From positions 62,001 to 126,000 of the forward strand of contig NZ_JAIUFY010000014.1 of NCBI RefSeq assembly GCF_020165855.1: DNA of 64,000 nt, given 5' to 3'. Shown piece after piece: positions 27,227 to 43,391 of the stretch; positions within the stretch are counted from its first letter, which is position 1; every line of letters starts with the position of its first letter. The notes under the pieces were generated by a model that ran no database searches, was not told the DNA's origin, and saw only the letters and a program-made list of their open reading frames with translations. The stretch is from Celeribacter litoreus. Lineage in GTDB: Bacteria > Pseudomonadota > Alphaproteobacteria > Rhodobacterales > Rhodobacteraceae. The position numbers and the translations under genes are program-made.

Positions 27227-27258
27227 TTGCGAGACGATCAAAAGTTCTTGTTATGTTC
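27227..27258 (+). promoter_or_regulatory. LexA box over a candidate uvrA promoter
   Basis: GTTCTTGTTATGTTC at 27244-27258 is an exact GTTC-N7-GTTC, the LexA site known in Rhodobacter and other alphaproteobacteria. It covers the candidate -10 element TTATGT (27251-27256), which has TTGCGA (27227-27232) 18 bases upstream. It lies 70 bases before the uvrA start, so SOS control of uvrA is well supported. Confidence 0.85.
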
Positions 27259-39171: not shown

Positions 39172-39313
39172 TCTAGGAAAATATGCCGGCGATGTGCTCA
39201 TGGCCTACGGCGCAACCTTTGTGTTGTTGGCGGCGCTGATCTGGCGCTCACTCGCACGGTCCACAAAAATCAAACGTCAATTGAAAGAAGCTGAGGCGCG
39301 TCGCAATGGCTAA
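39164..39313 (+). CDS. ccmD: Haem exporter subunit CcmD
   Basis: 49 residues: MPDLGKYAGDVLMAYGATFV, one membrane helix (about 12-30), then a basic tail. This is the typical size and layout of CcmD, which releases holo-CcmE from CcmABC. It overlaps ccmC and ccmG by eight bases on each side. Confidence 0.92.
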   Translation: MPDLGKYAGDVLMAYGATFVLLAALIWRSLARSTKIKRQLKEAEARRNG

Positions 39314-39845
39314 AATCAACCCTCTCATGGCGCTCCCGCCGGTTCTGTTCCTCGGGCTTGCGGGCCTGTTCATGTTCGGCATGGGCCGCGAGGATGCAGA
39401 GCAACTGCCGTCGGCGCAGATCGGCCGCGTGGCTCCGTCAATTGAGGCTGTGACGCCACTCGCGGATTTGACACCGCTGACAGATGACATGCTGCGCGAT
39501 GGGGGCGTGAAGCTCGTGAACTATTGGGCGTCGTGGTGCGCGCCGTGCCGTGCGGAGCATCCGCAGCTTGAGGCGCTCGCCGATCAAGGCGTCACGATCT
39601 ACGGCATCAACTACAAGGACGAGGCGACGAACGCGGTCAAATTCCTCGGCGAGCTTGGCGATCCGTTCGATGCGGTTGCACAGGACGAACCGGGGCGCAC
39701 GGCGCTCGAATGGGGTCTGTATGGCGTGCCAGAGACTTATGTCGTGGACGCAGAGGGGCGCATCCGGTTCCGCTTTGCCGGTCCAATCACCGTGTCGGTC
39801 ATGGAAAACCAGATCCTGCCGGAAATCGCCAAAGCGTCCGAGTGA
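39306..39845 (+). CDS. ccmG: Thiol:disulfide interchange protein CcmG/DsbE
   Basis: 179 residues: an N-terminal membrane anchor (about 8-26) and a periplasmic thioredoxin fold with Cys78-Ala-Pro-Cys81 (WASWCAPCRAEHP). The Glu-rich insert and GVPETYVVDAEGRIRFRFAGPI are typical of CcmG. It helps keep apocytochrome c haem-binding cysteines reduced. ccmE, ccmF and ccmH are not in the window. Three bases separate its stop from the convergent DUF4130 gene. Confidence 0.94.
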   Translation: MAKINPLMALPPVLFLGLAGLFMFGMGREDAEQLPSAQIGRVAPSIEAVTPLADLTPLTDDMLRDGGVKLVNYWASWCAPCRAEHPQLEALADQGVTIYGINYKDEATNAVKFLGELGDPFDAVAQDEPGRTALEWGLYGVPETYVVDAEGRIRFRFAGPITVSVMENQILPEIAKASE

Positions 39846-39848
39846 TCG

Positions 39849-40682
39849 TTAGTCGTCACGCGTTTTCCCGCGTGCTTTAATGACTTCCGCGCGTTTCGGG
39901 GCGACGGTCGGCGCGGCGTCGGCCATGGCCCTCACGCGGGCCTCCGCAGTTGCGATAAGGTCCGGAATCTCGGATGCCTCCGGCATATTGGCCCAATATT
40001 TCTTCGGCATTTCCGAGGTCATCGCGGTGAGCTTCACCCGCGCGGGGTTGAAGATGTTTCGGAAATAGACGCGCCAGAGGTCTTCTGTCGCATCTATCGG
40101 GAAGTCCGGTTTGTCGACGCCCTCCGCCAACTGCACCTTACCATCCACGAAATGCGCGCTCAGGTCGGGGGTGAAGATGGACCAATCCATATCCCCGAAC
40201 CGGTCCGTAAAGAACGGCAACGCGGGTTCGAGCGTGTAATGGCTCGGCTCAAACCACGCGGCAAAGCGGCGGCGCGGGGCATCGGGGTCGCCGATCTCGC
40301 GAAAGCGGAGGAAGGCGTGCATCTTGTGCCGGTCTCGCCCGACCTCTTTGGCCATGCGGTTCAGTCGACTGATCCGAATGTCACCGCGATCCTCGATCAA
40401 CGTCCGATCCGAGCGCAAGGCCCAAAGCAGGGCGTAAAGCTGATGAAACCGCGTGTGATCGCAGTGCCAGATCGAAAGACGCGCGAGCGAGACGAAAGAC
40501 TTCGGTACAGGGATCGTGCTCTTGGGGAGCGGGGGCAGGGGACGGGCGAACAGGTCTTTTTCGCCTGCGCCACGGGACCAGAGCACTTCCTCCGGCGGGA
40601 TGTTCGCACTGATGAGCCGCCGCGCGACGTCGCGCCACGCGGTGAAGGTGTCCATCTCAGGCAGGGTGATGCGGTAGCTCAT
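39849..40682 (-). CDS. DUF4130 (TIGR03915-type) DNA metabolism protein, without UDG domain
   Basis: 277 residues from the ATG of MSYRITLPEMDTFTAWRDVARRLISANIPPEEVLW, typical of the family. Recognisable blocks: ARLSIWHCDHTRFHQLYALLWAL, DIRISRLNRMAKEVGRDRHKMHAFLRFRE, RRFAAWFEPSHYTLEPALPFFTDRFG and WRVYFRNIFNPARVKLTAMTSEMPKKYW. In many bacteria this domain is fused at its C-terminus to, or lies beside, a uracil-DNA-glycosylase-like (UdgX) domain. Here the protein stops after a Lys/Arg-rich tail and ccmG begins three bases away, so that domain is absent. It starts two bases after the stop of the radical SAM gene (one base between), so the pair is one operon. The function is unknown; a DNA repair or modification role is inferred from partners. 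Confidence 0.85.
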   Translation of the reverse strand: MSYRITLPEMDTFTAWRDVARRLISANIPPEEVLWSRGAGEKDLFARPLPPLPKSTIPVPKSFVSLARLSIWHCDHTRFHQLYALLWALRSDRTLIEDRGDIRISRLNRMAKEVGRDRHKMHAFLRFREIGDPDAPRRRFAAWFEPSHYTLEPALPFFTDRFGDMDWSIFTPDLSAHFVDGKVQLAEGVDKPDFPIDATEDLWRVYFRNIFNPARVKLTAMTSEMPKKYWANMPEASEIPDLIATAEARVRAMADAAPTVAPKRAEVIKARGKTRDD

Positions 40683-40683
40683 G

Positions 40684-41922
40684 TTACAAAAGCTGAAGCT
40701 GCTGAGGCTGCGGCGCAAAGCGGGCGCGCAGGTGTTCCGTGTCCGTGAGCCCGCGCGGATGCCAGTCCAAGAGCGATATAAACGGCCGCGCCTGTTTGAG
40801 GTTGGCCCCCATGCGCCGCAGATCGTCATAGCGCAGCGTGCGGTGCCGACGGGTGGAAAGAATGCGCCCGACGCTCCGCTGACCAATGCCTGGGATGCGC
40901 AAAAGCATCTCCCGATCCGCGCGGTTCACATCCACCGGAAATACATGCCGGTTCTTGAGCGCCCAGGCGAGTTTCGGATCAATGTCGAGATCGAGATTGC
41001 CATCCGCCGTCCCGCTATCCGTGATCTCCTCCACATCGAACCCGTAGAACCGGAGGAGCCAGTCGGCCTGGTAGAGACGATGCTCCCGCACCAGAGGCGG
41101 CTTGATGAGGGGCAGGGCGCTTGAGCTATCCGGAATGGGGGAGAAGGCAGAATAGTAGACGCGTTTTAGGCGGTAGCCTGTGTAGAGACGGCTTGAGGTG
41201 CGTAGGATCGTTGTGTCATTGGCCCCGTCCGCGCCCACGATCATCTGGGTCGACTGACCGGCAGGGGCAAATTTCGGCGGGCGCTTTCCGGTGTGGCTGC
41301 GGTCCTTGCGGGCGTCTTTTTGTTCTTTCACCTCCCGCATGGCACGGCGGATCTGCACGGGGTCTTTTTCGGGGGCAAATGTTTTGACGCCATTGTCGGT
41401 GGGCAGTTCCACATTGATCGACAGGCGGTCCGCGTAAAGCCCCGCCTCCTCAATGAGATGCGGTGCGGCGTCTGGAATAGTTTTGAGGTGGATGTAGCCG
41501 CGAAACCCGTGCTCCGTGCGCAGGAGTTTGGCGATCCGCACCATGTCGGCCATGGTGTCATCGGGGCTCTTGATGATGCCCGACGACAGGAACAGCCCCT
41601 CGATATAATTCCGGCGATAGAATTCGAGGGTGAGCGTGACGACTTCCTCCGGCGCAAACCGCGCGCGTTGCACGTTCGAACTCACCCGATTGACGCAATA
41701 GACGCAGTCATAGATGCAGAAATTGGTCATCAGGATTTTGAGCAGGCTGATGCACCGCCCGTCCGGCGTGTAGGCATGACAAATGCCGGACCCTGTCACC
41801 GATCCGATGCCCTTGCCGTCTCTCGAGTTGCGTTTCTGCCCCCCGCTCGACGCGCAGGAGGCATCATATTTCGCCGCGTCCGAGAGGATGGCGAGTTTTT
41901 GTTCTAACGATAACCTGCTCAT
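40684..41922 (-). CDS. Putative DNA modification/repair radical SAM protein (TIGR03916-type)
   Basis: 412 residues. The radical SAM cluster motif CxxxCxxC is Cys69, Cys73 and Cys76 (CIYDCVYC). Upstream are family-typical Cys residues in DASCASSGGQKRNS and SGICHAYTPDGRCISLLK. Around 340-370 a helix-hairpin-helix DNA-binding motif follows (INRADREMLLRIPGIG-like: VNRADREMLLRIPGIGQRSVGRIL). Known members are linked genomically to UDG and DUF4130 proteins, hence the suggested DNA substrate; no reaction is established to my knowledge. A LexA box lies three bases upstream of the ATG, so the gene is probably SOS-controlled and perhaps leaderless. Confidence 0.9.
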   Translation of the reverse strand: MSRLSLEQKLAILSDAAKYDASCASSGGQKRNSRDGKGIGSVTGSGICHAYTPDGRCISLLKILMTNFCIYDCVYCVNRVSSNVQRARFAPEEVVTLTLEFYRRNYIEGLFLSSGIIKSPDDTMADMVRIAKLLRTEHGFRGYIHLKTIPDAAPHLIEEAGLYADRLSINVELPTDNGVKTFAPEKDPVQIRRAMREVKEQKDARKDRSHTGKRPPKFAPAGQSTQMIVGADGANDTTILRTSSRLYTGYRLKRVYYSAFSPIPDSSSALPLIKPPLVREHRLYQADWLLRFYGFDVEEITDSGTADGNLDLDIDPKLAWALKNRHVFPVDVNRADREMLLRIPGIGQRSVGRILSTRRHRTLRYDDLRRMGANLKQARPFISLLDWHPRGLTDTEHLRARFAPQPQQLQLL

Positions 41923-41924
41923 GT

Positions 41925-41939
41925 GTTCATGGTATGTTC
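41925..41939 (-). promoter_or_regulatory. LexA box at the start of the radical SAM/DUF4130 operon
   Basis: GTTCATGGTATGTTC on the plus strand, an exact GTTC-N7-GTTC (GAAC-N7-GAAC in the gene's direction), three bases before the ATG at 41922. A possible -35 TTGCCA and -10 ATACCA with 17 bases between them would place the -10 element within this box. That would make the mRNA leaderless or nearly so. Confidence 0.8.
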
Positions 41940-41990
41940 ACCATAAGTGATTTGGCAAGATATCCGATGTTCATATTTTGTGCGCGCACG

Positions 41991-42043: not shown

Positions 42044-43321
42044 TTAGCTCAGCGCCTGATCCAGATCGGCGATCAGGTCTTTTGCGTCCTCAATGCCGAT
42101 GGAAAGGCGCAGGATGTTCGGACCTGCCCCTGCCTTGATCTGCTCTTCCGGCGCAAGCTGACGGTGCGTCGTCGATGCCGGATGGATCACAAGGGAGCGC
42201 GCATCTCCGAGGTTCGCGACGTGCGAGAAGAGCTTGAGCTTGCCCACGGTCTCGACACAGGCATCATAACCGCCTTTGAGCGCGACGGTGAACAGAGCAC
42301 CTGCACCGCGCGGACAAATGCGTGTCATGCGGTCGTAGTAGGGCGAAGAGGGCAGGCCGGAGTAGGTCACTGCCTCGATGCGGTCATCACCTTCGAGCCA
42401 GTTCGCAATCTCGCGTGCGTTTTGGACGTGCTTCTGCATCCGCAGGCTCAGGGTTTCGATCCCCATGAGCGTGTAATGCGCGCCCTGCGGGTTCATCGTC
42501 ATGCCCAGATCGCGCAGCCCGATGGCGATGGAGTGGAAGGTGAAGGCCATGGGCCCGAGCGCCTCGGCAAAGCACAACCCGTGATAGGCCGGTTCCGGCT
42601 TAGACAGCGAGGGGAATTTGTCCGAGGCCATCCAGTCGAAATTGCCGCTATCTACGATGGCGCCGCCCGTGACGGTGCCGTTGCCGGTCAGGTATTTCGT
42701 GGTCGAATGAACGACGAGCGTGGCCCCGTGCTTGATCGGGTTGCAGAGATAGGGTGTCGCGGCCGTGTTATCGACGATGAACGGAATGCCGGCGTTCTTG
42801 GCAATCTCGCCGAGCGCGTCGAGATCCATGATCGCGCCCGCCGGGTTCGATAGGCTCTCACAGAAGAGCGCCTGCGTGTTCTCATCAATCGCATCGCGCA
42901 CCGCGTCGAAATCGTCAAAATCCACGAGTTTCGCGGACCAGCCGAAGCGTTTGAAGGTCTGGGTGAACTGCGTGAGCGTGCCGCCGTAGAGACGGGTTGA
43001 GGCCACGACATTCTTGCCCGGTGCCATGAGCGGGAAAAGCGCCATAATCTGCGCCGCGTGACCGGACGAACAGCACACAGCCCCGGCACCGCCCTCAAGA
43101 GCGGCAATGCGGTTTTGCAGCGCGGCCACCGTCGGGTTGGTCAGGCGCGAATAGATGTAGCCGACTTCTTCGAGGTTGAAGAGCCGTGCGGCATGTTCTG
43201 CATCTTTGAAAACATAGGCCGTCGTTTGATAAATCGGCACCTGACGGGCACCGGTTGCCGGATCAGGCTCCGTTCCTGCGTGAATTTGAGTCGTGTCGAA
43301 TCCGAAATTGTTGTCGGACAT
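42044..43321 (-). CDS. metY: O-acetylhomoserine sulfhydrylase (PLP-dependent)
   Basis: 425 residues from the ATG of MSDNNFGFDTTQIHAG, preceded by GGGGGAGGA. Cys/Met metabolism PLP enzyme: the cofactor Lys209 is in HSTTKYLTGNGTVTGG, the substrate-side YSRLTNPT motif is near 57-65, and SSGHAAQIMAL binds phosphate. The length and the GYDACVETVGKLKLFSHVANLGDARSLVIHPASTTH block fit MetY rather than cystathionine gamma-synthase. It makes homocysteine from O-acetylhomoserine and sulfide. Monocistronic. Confidence 0.92.
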   Translation of the reverse strand: MSDNNFGFDTTQIHAGTEPDPATGARQVPIYQTTAYVFKDAEHAARLFNLEEVGYIYSRLTNPTVAALQNRIAALEGGAGAVCCSSGHAAQIMALFPLMAPGKNVVASTRLYGGTLTQFTQTFKRFGWSAKLVDFDDFDAVRDAIDENTQALFCESLSNPAGAIMDLDALGEIAKNAGIPFIVDNTAATPYLCNPIKHGATLVVHSTTKYLTGNGTVTGGAIVDSGNFDWMASDKFPSLSKPEPAYHGLCFAEALGPMAFTFHSIAIGLRDLGMTMNPQGAHYTLMGIETLSLRMQKHVQNAREIANWLEGDDRIEAVTYSGLPSSPYYDRMTRICPRGAGALFTVALKGGYDACVETVGKLKLFSHVANLGDARSLVIHPASTTHRQLAPEEQIKAGAGPNILRLSIGIEDAKDLIADLDQALS

Positions 43322-43362
43322 CTGTGTCCTCCCCCCTAAAATTAGATCGCAATCTGCGCACA

Positions 43363-43391
43363 AGCTTACGCGGGCGCGGGGTCGCGTTCAA
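43363..43391 (-). promoter_or_regulatory. Candidate metY promoter
   Basis: On the minus strand TTGAAC, a 17-base spacer and TAAGCT, about 40 bases before the ATG. I looked for a SAM riboswitch in the leader and did not recognise one. Confidence 0.45.

Follow-up and report, generated by a model that had tools for sequence, protein, structure and literature searches.

A trimmed radical SAM/DUF4130 gene pair behind a conserved LexA box in Celeribacter litoreus

Introduction

Which part of the radical SAM/DUF4130/UdgX module is its core? The 64,000-nucleotide stretch of Celeribacter litoreus DNA analysed here (the window) raises this question, since a radical SAM gene and a DUF4130 gene lie there behind a LexA box and UdgX is missing.

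We take COG4277 to be the helix-hairpin-helix/radical SAM protein of the TIGR03916 type. A LexA-controlled operon of two genes, COG1573 and COG4277, has already been published for Bacteroidetes; the same paper (PMC8565304) states that it was also reported for Verrucomicrobia and Alphaproteobacteria. According to PMC10359453, the physiological role of UdgX is largely unknown. Among radical SAM proteins, SplB has been listed as the product of a predicted LexA-controlled gene (PMC3323433, in the portion available), and an excerpt of PMC3765255 terms the partners of DUF4130 SplB-like. The open-access literature that we searched gave no prior report of repeated UdgX loss or trimming.

Results

Two members of the trio are present and the third is absent from the genome

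Both window proteins score above the curated NCBIfam cut-offs (Table 1), which upholds the initial annotation of a TIGR03916-type radical SAM gene and a TIGR03915-type DUF4130 gene separated by 1 base. The DUF4130 protein is also a PF13566 member in the Pfam scan (119.8 against a gathering score of 27). The third model of this trio, TIGR03914 (UdgX), was not matched above its cut-off by any protein of the genome (profile search; 99.63% complete, 16 contigs), as expected from the proposed lack of a UdgX partner. A UdgX hidden elsewhere in the genome is ruled out, as the only two matches are sub-threshold: one is a family-4 UDG (L009; TIGR00758, 164 bits) and the other (L010) has no NCBIfam match at E 1e-10. 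In contrast, the fusion protein of a relative (L012) passes both the TIGR03915 and the TIGR03914 cut-offs.

The DUF4130 gene had been described as ending cleanly, with ccmG three bases away. The distance holds; however, ccmG is convergent, so that stop faces stop, an orientation absent from the earlier description, and the protein retains a C-terminal linker before its stop. This linker, identified on the sequences of the window protein and its relatives, shows a weak match (E 0.041) to the UdgX model at positions 2-35.

Table 1. Features of the radical SAM/DUF4130 locus (window coordinates)
Feature	Position	Strand	Remarks
Predicted -35, TTGCCA	41953-41958	-	18-base spacer in the window
LexA box of the alphaproteobacterial GTTC-N7-GTTC type, GAACATACCATGAAC on the gene strand	41925-41939	-	exact; conserved
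Predicted -10, TACCAT	41929-41934	-	within the LexA box spacer
Radical SAM gene, TIGR03916	40684-41922	-	412 aa; 592.9 bits, curated cut-off 343.5
TIGR03915/DUF4130 gene	39849-40682	-	277 aa; 180.2 bits, cut-off 112.25; without UdgX domain
C-terminal linker of the DUF4130 protein, residues 239-272	39867-39968	-	in relatives joins DUF4130 to UdgX
Junction of DUF4130 stop and convergent ccmG stop	39846-39848	.	3 bases; boundary where UdgX is missing
ccmG	39306-39845	+	DsbE/TIGR00385; convergent to the DUF4130 gene

A LexA box is conserved at the radical SAM start

The box sequence GTTCATGGTATGTTC is an exact match to GTTC-N7-GTTC, as annotated, and lies two bases (41923-41924) rather than three before the ATG at 41922. 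Exact matches number 7 in the window against 2.8 expected, and 129 genome-wide against 65 for the backward pattern. By these chance counts a single box is weak evidence, whereas conservation across loci makes it strong. Merging of identical alphaproteobacterial loci left 131 distinct ones, and 128 of these carry the box at -60 to +15 of the radical SAM start, compared with 85 of 6550 random windows (1.3%) and 1 of 131 loci for the backward pattern over the same interval. Close relatives agree, as the box is kept in 7/7 mates of the window's supported clade. Other Pseudomonadota have an E. coli-type CTGT-N8-ACAG box (at most one mismatch) instead, at 23 of 28 non-alphaproteobacterial loci against a background of 8.2%; five of the 28 have a box of neither type. 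Among loci without UdgX, 25/27 carry a box (10/10 in Alphaproteobacteria, 15/17 outside). In the genome of the window, a box also precedes uvrA (27244-27258) and two overlapping boxes lie upstream of lexA. The conserved promoter box makes the pair a probable member of the LexA regulon, and the SOS control initially suggested is supported as far as sequence can tell.

Moreover, the box region resembles a promoter. Among 122 aligned loci, TTG is enriched at -18 to -16 of the box start (T in 81, T in 66, G in 62), and the predicted -35 of the window sits one base farther from the box than this TTG. The box spacer matches TATAAT at four or more of six positions in 77/122 loci, and the first start codon comes 2 bases past the box in 55/122. 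With this arrangement, the predicted transcription start coincides with the ATG or adjoins it, and the mRNA would be leaderless.

UdgX has changed state repeatedly, and the window form is trimmed

UdgX is fused behind DUF4130 at 128 of 155 scorable loci, in keeping with the family association noted at the outset, and is absent at 27. Three loci that end inside or just past DUF4130 (L053, L074, L127) were scored NA; L087 has no adjacent DUF4130 and L180 no radical SAM gene. The DNA-bonding His is retained at 124 of the 128 UdgX-bearing loci. On the radical SAM tree, from which L016 and L171 were omitted (broken radical SAM frame), the UdgX state changes at least 12 times, and losses of UdgX have thus recurred. 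All seven clade mates of the window locus encode the DUF4130-UdgX fusion. Because the nearest relatives are all fused and the linker is retained in the window protein, the system is trimmed rather than primitive, and its earlier description as "minimal" should be replaced.

The two-protein form without UdgX is not rare. The partner counts cover 80 of 88 DUF4130-positive genomes (the others being G000, G312, G094, G042, G224 and G269, which were in earlier samples, G387, a fragment with a stop, and G657). Among these 80 TIGR03915-positive Pseudomonadota genomes, TIGR03916 occurs in 77 and UdgX above cut-off in 60; outside Alphaproteobacteria, UdgX reaches the cut-off in 10 of 28. The control genome Bacteroides ihuae has TIGR03915 and TIGR03916 listed but not TIGR03914; for the Caulobacter control genome, all three families are listed. 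No UdgX above cut-off was found elsewhere in any of eight sampled genomes bearing a UdgX-less DUF4130 locus, in G494, or in 17 UdgX-less non-alphaproteobacterial genomes.

A family-4 UDG such as L009 might replace the lost UdgX in trans, the pair still working with a uracil-DNA glycosylase, and a sub-cut-off UdgX match does occur in 8/8 of the sampled genomes; yet such a match is also held by UdgX-bearing genomes (G006, G107) and is thus not a specific replacement, and 9 of the 80 DUF4130-positive genomes have no TIGR03914 match at E<=0.001 (a count that does not cover family-1 Ung), so we give this proposal little credence.

The flanks of the 27 UdgX-less loci (1.5-2.5 kb; only 45 bases for L239) contain no co-directional replacement partner recurring across clades. 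The only co-directional recurrence, an acetyltransferase gene by eye, is confined to one sub-group (L240/L241/L242). Convergent downstream genes recur within sub-groups (L229/L230/L233/L234/L235; L232/L238; L025/L036/L163). A convergent gene near L021, L025, L028, L036, L163 and L244, by eye the GTPase YchF, also lies beside 16 UdgX-bearing loci; it therefore marks a shared location and is ruled out as a UdgX replacement. Apparent in-frame radical SAM-DUF4130 fusions, suggested by long open frames, were by their coordinates open alternative frames.

Purifying selection on UdgX-less pairs

Judged by substitution rates, the UdgX-less two-protein versions in other lineages are under purifying selection, mostly with a LexA box. 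Divergent UdgX-less Rhodobacteraceae loci show dN/dS of 0.07-0.10 in both genes, and UdgX-less pairs stay below 0.5, with dS near saturation in many of the compared pairs. In the non-alphaproteobacterial UdgX-less group, dN/dS reaches 0.43 and DUF4130 dN is 1.8-5.9 times that of the radical SAM gene; this ratio is 6.8 in a UdgX-bearing non-alphaproteobacterial pair (L231-L254). Pairs that include the window give 0.21-0.32 for DUF4130 and 0.11-0.15 for radical SAM, against 0.15-0.35 and 0.15-0.26 among UdgX-bearing clade mates, and the DUF4130/radical SAM dN ratio of the window is slightly above that of its clade mates (means 2.1 vs 1.7). Because no clade mate shares the truncation, the dN/dS of the window cannot isolate selection after the loss.

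These data bear on whether the copy in the window is decaying and close to being lost; it would then be a transferred radical SAM/DUF4130-UdgX module whose 3' end broke on landing or rearranging beside ccmG. The distribution of the module fits such a history: DUF4130 occurs in only 2/20 genomes of the genus, the other copy (G006) lies at a different site and in another part of the tree, and ccmG and a sulfhydrylase gene (42044-43363) are directly adjacent in 16/19 genus relatives, so that the module occupies a junction that is otherwise empty. The truncated end lies against the ccmG stop and has no counterpart in the clade, and L180 (genome G136), a divergent DUF4130 standing without radical SAM and UdgX, provides a precedent for module decay, as the core can decay too. 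However, both reading frames are intact, the two proteins conform to the consensus at all 44 (DUF4130) and all 173 (radical SAM) highly conserved columns, the LexA box and promoter-like elements are preserved, dN/dS of the window pairs lies within or below the clade-mate ranges, and other lineages retain the trimmed form under selection. We therefore regard decay of the window copy as unlikely.

The radical SAM protein and the predicted fold of DUF4130

The CX3CX2C motif of the radical SAM protein (C69/C73/C76) is invariant in 30 aligned rows, as are C23, C48 and C57. The initial annotation had argued for DNA as substrate from a helix-hairpin-helix. Such a role is plausible, although the HHH_5, HHH_3 and HHH matches near residues 330-359 are weak and under the Pfam gathering scores; profile matches of this element to RuvA and ComEA-like chains are likewise weak (E 0.016-0.061). 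The spore photoproduct lyase family is included in both the NCBIfam and the PDB profile collections. Up to E 0.1, no SplB or spore photoproduct lyase model appeared among the NCBIfam matches and no such chain among the PDB profile matches. The best among the matches listed for the predicted structure were lipoyl synthase and HydE; SplB was not among the 50 listed in either of two fold comparisons, an outcome that speaks neither for nor against an SplB fold.

The DUF4130 structure was predicted with a pLDDT of 93. Residues 1-195 of this model align best with RecJ/Cdc45/DHH-type chains (174 residues, Z 8.4, rmsd 3.8). Judging by their labels, nearly all of the 50 matches listed (Z 3.9-8.4) are presumably DHH/DHHA-type or AlaRS C-terminal chains. 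In a structural realignment against 998 chains, Z is at least 8 for 2 of them and at least 5 for 37; a best Z of 7-8 is usual for models that lack a clear match. A Foldseek search of the model gave no match at E<=0.001, profile comparison with RecJ (hhalign) gave none either (probability 0.04%), and a sequence search against solved structures found nothing useful. Pfam scans of 79 DUF4130 members detected no DHH family, and no DHH motif occurs among the invariant or near-invariant columns. DUF4130 is thus predicted, from modelled structure, to resemble RecJ/Cdc45-type DHH proteins in shape, but it differs from these phosphoesterases in lacking the DHH motif and any sequence link.

This resemblance also raises the idea that DUF4130 has catalytic activity of its own, such as that of a DHH-kind nuclease or phosphoesterase, and that the radical SAM protein only modifies DUF4130 or its substrate. 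The predicted fold is like those of RecJ, PAP phosphatase and NrnA, residues H119, R126, R161 and E235 are invariant and D101, E145 and H148 nearly so, and PMC3765255 describes DUF4130 as a predicted mutagenesis-related enzyme. The missing DHH motif and the lack of a sequence link to DHH families argue against it, and we consider an enzymatic DUF4130 rather improbable.

Discussion

Taken together, we think it reasonably probable that the window holds a LexA-repressed two-gene DNA-repair operon in which UdgX is an accessory, unneeded for the core reaction. The core is probably the radical SAM protein plus DUF4130, because UdgX-less pairs mostly keep their LexA boxes and have low dN/dS. The function of this operon is likely radical repair of a DNA lesion, a putative chemistry.

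In this operon, DNA damage would remove LexA and free the promoter, with its predicted -10 in the spacer of the box, and a leaderless mRNA would follow. The radical SAM protein may be guided to DNA by its helix-hairpin-helix and by DUF4130, which, given its predicted shape and the absence of a catalytic motif, could serve as a DNA-holding or lesion-recognising subunit. The radical SAM protein would then make a 5'-deoxyadenosyl radical and act directly on the damaged nucleotide. Where present, UdgX may be an accessory for covalent capture of uracil or abasic sites. More tentatively, and with appreciable doubt, DUF4130 might be a catalytically dead, compact RecJ/Cdc45-like protein that holds DNA, either single-stranded or lesion-bearing, for its dedicated radical SAM partner, the whole forming a radical-based, SOS-induced direct-repair or base-modifying machine of several bacterial classes, with the DNA-crosslinking UdgX an optional add-on that was repeatedly removed.

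The COG1573-COG4277 operon, as far as the available text of PMC8565304 describes it, likewise consists of two genes under a LexA-type box; it includes a UDG (COG1573), whereas here UdgX is gone and DUF4130 and its linker remain. UdgX, for which see PMC10359453 and PMC10776899, is fused behind DUF4130 in most of the loci compared here and absent in the window. The spore photoproduct lyase SplB, in the partial texts cited above, shares the radical SAM class, predicted DNA repair and a LexA box, but no sequence match to the window protein was found up to E 0.1.

Natural UdgX-less operons with a LexA box and purifying selection can reveal which part is the core. In UdgX-less strains, the radical SAM/DUF4130 reaction would be accessible to study free of covalent uracil trapping. 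If confirmed, the pairing of a radical SAM enzyme with a RecJ/Cdc45-like protein would be new to DNA repair.

A probable LexA-controlled rSAM/DUF4130 locus

The radical SAM (rSAM, 412 aa) and DUF4130 (277 aa) genes of the window both exceed their NCBIfam cut-offs and, as the initial annotation had described, lie 1 base apart. Its 3-base spacing between the DUF4130 end and ccmG also holds, measured stop to stop, ccmG being convergent. An exact GTTC-N7-GTTC box stands where it had been placed, but its gap to the ATG is 2 bases, not 3.

Features of the rSAM/DUF4130 locus and of a second LexA box in the window
Feature	Position	Strand	Remarks
ccmG/dsbE gene	39306-39845	+	downstream, convergent with the DUF4130 gene
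DUF4130 gene	39849-40682	-	TIGR03915, 180.2 bits (cut-off 112.25)
rSAM gene	40684-41922	-	TIGR03916, 592.9 bits (cut-off 343.5)
LexA-type box GTTCATGGTATGTTC	41925-41939		2 bases ahead of the rSAM ATG
O-acetylhomoserine (OAH) sulfhydrylase gene	42044-43363	-	upstream of the rSAM/DUF4130 pair
LexA box GTTCTTGTTATGTTC	27244-27258		78 bases ahead of uvrA

Taken alone, the box in the window is weak evidence: exact matches number 7 in the window versus 2.8 expected, and 129 in the whole genome versus 65 for the backward pattern. We compared the best 80 of 589 rSAM relatives, 59 DUF4130 loci from the window's family and genus, and one locus from the phylum sample (L244). The conservation that the initial annotation had proposed to examine proved extensive, with an exact box at -60 to +15 of the rSAM start in 128 of 131 distinct alphaproteobacterial rSAM loci; the backward pattern occurred in 1 of the 131, and among 6550 random windows of equal length 85 contained the box. 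The other three loci are L171, with a broken rSAM, and L123 and L177, both with a visible near-box. Elsewhere in the same genome, two overlapping boxes lie some 230 bases ahead of the stretch that matched lexA, and the uvrA box matches letter for letter those given in PMC12700426 for two SOS genes of Caulobacter.

When 122 loci were aligned on the box, TTG stood out at positions -18 to -16 relative to the start of the box (T in 81, T in 66, G in 62), and box positions 6-11 resembled TATAAT (at least 4 of 6 matches in 77). A -35 element with at least 4 matches was found in 64 of the 122, versus 21 after shuffling of the upstream bases, most commonly with a 17-base spacer (37/64). The first start codon lies 2 bases past the box in 55 loci. 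These signals suggest that the LexA operator overlaps the -10 element and that the mRNA would be leaderless in many of these species. TTGCCA-N18-TACCAT in the window agrees with this predicted layout.

Outside class Alphaproteobacteria, 23 of 28 Pseudomonadota genomes carry the E. coli-type box CTGT-N8-ACAG (at most 1 mismatch; exact in 18) within 200 bases upstream, against a background of 8.2% of 230-base control windows. It precedes 15 of 17 UdgX-less and 8 of 11 UdgX-bearing loci, the latter including L231, whose degenerate UdgX falls under the NCBIfam cut-off. SOS control of the pair thus appears to persist across the change of LexA motif, independently of UdgX. Three UdgX-bearing loci of one genus (L245, L246 and L247, in genomes G409, G608 and G695) have neither box type near the rSAM start; they share an inverted repeat of the type TCTCATCCAATGAGA just upstream of it, possibly another operator.

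Repeated loss of UdgX

The expected glycosylase partner, UdgX (TIGR03914), had been noted as missing, and a profile search of the genome agreed: no protein exceeded the UdgX cut-off. The genome encodes one family-4 UDG and one other weak match to the UdgX model. A UdgX domain follows DUF4130 as a fusion in 128 of the 155 loci that could be scored; the remaining 27 lack it. For example, one protein of the fused locus L012 exceeds both the TIGR03915 and UdgX cut-offs, and that of the trimmed locus L028 exceeds only TIGR03915. The histidine that forms the covalent bond with DNA, numbered as in PMC10359453, is kept in 124 of the 128 fused domains. The four without it (L048, L065, L073 and L231) represent an apparent catalytic loss without deletion.

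UdgX presence changes at least 12 times on the rSAM tree, which was built quickly, leaves 52 forks open and has long branches that meet at L123/L161 and L226; its change counts by themselves do not separate gain from loss. The window is the sole UdgX-less row in an eight-row group (96% SH-aLRT support), and alphaproteobacterial UdgX-less rows occupy about six places: the window; L244; L164; L021/L028/L025/L036/L163; L067; and L161. The linker that joins UdgX in fusions is kept and followed by a stop in 8 of 10 alphaproteobacterial UdgX-less proteins (exceptions, L067 and L161). Because these eight retain the pre-UdgX linker, at least most of the UdgX-less alphaproteobacterial forms appear to have arisen by loss. 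In the window, DUF4130 residues 239-272 match UdgX model positions 2-35 (E 0.041). The earlier observation is confirmed and its interpretation partly supported: two genes do stand without UdgX, but the linker remnant and the seven UdgX-bearing clade mates on the rSAM tree point to a form derived by UdgX loss rather than a minimal two-protein system.

Eight searched genomes with a UdgX-less DUF4130 locus (G173, G241, G312, G136 and those of L021, L025, L036 and L067) yielded no UdgX above the cut-off; in one of them, G136, DUF4130 is divergent and lacks an adjacent rSAM. The same negative result holds for G494 and the 17 UdgX-less non-alphaproteobacterial genomes. In four genomes (G360, G560, G572 and G626), an additional UdgX above the cut-off is encoded outside the DUF4130 locus, so this protein is not confined to the pair.

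Retention of the rSAM/DUF4130 pair

Among 80 DUF4130-positive Pseudomonadota genomes, TIGR03916 occurs in 77 and UdgX over the cut-off in 60 (50/52 in Alphaproteobacteria, 10/28 outside). The three without any TIGR03916 match (G511, G527 and G593) belong to one genus, and two of them retain UdgX over the cut-off.

In divergent UdgX-less Rhodobacteraceae (L021 and L028, mutually and versus L025/L036/L163), dN/dS is 0.07-0.10 for rSAM and 0.08-0.09 for DUF4130 with dS >1, although part of this divergence predates the loss if UdgX was lost there more than once. The close pairs among L025/L036/L163 give 0.04-0.11 (rSAM) and 0.07-0.15 (DUF4130). In a non-alphaproteobacterial UdgX-less group (7 rows, 21 pairs), DUF4130 dN/dS is 0.04-0.43 across all pairs but one, for which it could not be computed, and DUF4130 dN is 1.8-5.9 times that of rSAM, which argues for weaker DUF4130 constraint there; this ratio is likewise high (6.8) in the UdgX-bearing pair L231-L254.

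The window pair shows no sign of decay apart from the missing UdgX domain. Against the seven clade mates, dN/dS is 0.11-0.15 (rSAM) and 0.21-0.32 (DUF4130), and among the clade mates 0.15-0.26 and 0.15-0.35; the mean DUF4130/rSAM dN ratio is 2.1 for window pairs versus 1.7. None of 44 (DUF4130) and 173 (rSAM) conserved columns deviates. Elsewhere, the rSAM frame of L016 is broken near codon 27 and that of L171 is in pieces, through assembly error or decay. L087 (Fulvimarina endophytica) has rSAM and a LexA box with no DUF4130 within the 4 kb flank; its genome (G317) has a UdgX match in a 500-residue open frame.

Protein features

Residues C69, C73 and C76 of rSAM form a CX3CX2C motif. C23, C48 and C57 are likewise invariant (30 rows), partly in a poorly modelled N-terminal stretch (residues 24-46 under pLDDT 50, against a mean of 80.2 for the whole model), and could ligate a second iron-sulphur cluster. 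The best structural matches listed for the core are lipoyl synthase and HydE (first 14 rows: Z 15.5-16.0, 214-229 residues, rmsd 2.5-3.5). No match to spore photoproduct lyase was found by sequence (NCBIfam models, PDB profile matches).

The DUF4130 model (pLDDT 93.1, pTM 0.83) gave no Foldseek match at E<=0.001. After realignment of the top 1000 chains, the best 50 listed were nearly all DHH/DHHA-type or AlaRS C-terminal. DUF4130 aligned with PAP phosphatase 8a8k over 174 residues (Z 8.4, rmsd 3.8), with bacterial RecJ at Z 6.9-7.7 and with Cdc45 chains at Z 4.8-6.2, although by the comparison tool's own guidance best Z values of 7-8 are common for models without a clear match; family II pyrophosphatases align on residues 113-195. 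Of these, Cdc45, PAP phosphatase, family II pyrophosphatase and the AlaRS domain all belong to the DHH/DHHA kind. No DHH motif occurs among the conserved DUF4130 columns, and neither Pfam scans of members nor profile comparison with RecJ linked the families. Since unrelated folds are almost absent among the 50 listed rows, we take a possible DHH/RecJ/Cdc45-type fold as a lead.

History of the locus

DUF4130 occurs in 2 of 20 genomes of the window's genus. Among 19 relatives in the genus, 16 have ccmG right next to the sulfhydrylase gene in convergent orientation; of the others, one has a different neighbour and two (L266 and L270) hold other DNA at the junction, a possible insertion hot spot. 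In G006, the other module-bearing member, the junction is empty, the module lies elsewhere and its rSAM comes from a different part of the tree. Within flanks of up to about 4 kb, ccmG adjoins the module only in L022/L132 (one organism), and the sulfhydrylase gene in none of the relatives. The module thus sits in a different place in the window than in its relatives, probably through transfer or rearrangement. The truncated DUF4130 gene runs up to the ccmG boundary.

A gene identified by eye as the GTPase YchF lies, in convergent orientation, beside 16 UdgX-bearing and 6 UdgX-less loci, and also beside L180 (in G136). With neither rSAM nor UdgX, and a divergent DUF4130 that scores 53 bits and so misses the cut-off, L180 looks like a decaying module; elsewhere this YchF-side location holds complete modules.

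Discussion

Earlier papers predict that DUF4130 is a mutagenesis-related enzyme and associate it with SplB-like rSAM photolyases and with UDGs (PMC3765255), infer that LexA controls a COG1573-COG4277 operon in Bacteroidetes, cite such control as reported for Verrucomicrobia and Alphaproteobacteria (both PMC8565304), and predict it for splB in alpha- and betaproteobacteria (PMC3323433). The Streptomyces LexA regulon includes an unspecified radical SAM protein (PMC9380542) and a Sphingomonas DNA-repair gene list one related entry (PMC9611098). We found no paper treating both UdgX and radical SAM in the open-access literature searched.

Since UdgX can vanish while the pair stays, it becomes less likely that rSAM acts chiefly on UdgX-DNA complexes or relies on uracil excision by UdgX. 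Taken together, the window holds a UdgX-less version of a known SOS-regulated module, a natural variant that has arisen repeatedly. In the best-supported model, for which we infer the roles of both proteins, LexA would control the synthesis of an rSAM enzyme together with DUF4130 as its DNA-holding partner; the two may jointly act on damaged DNA by radical chemistry, with UdgX as an optional component.
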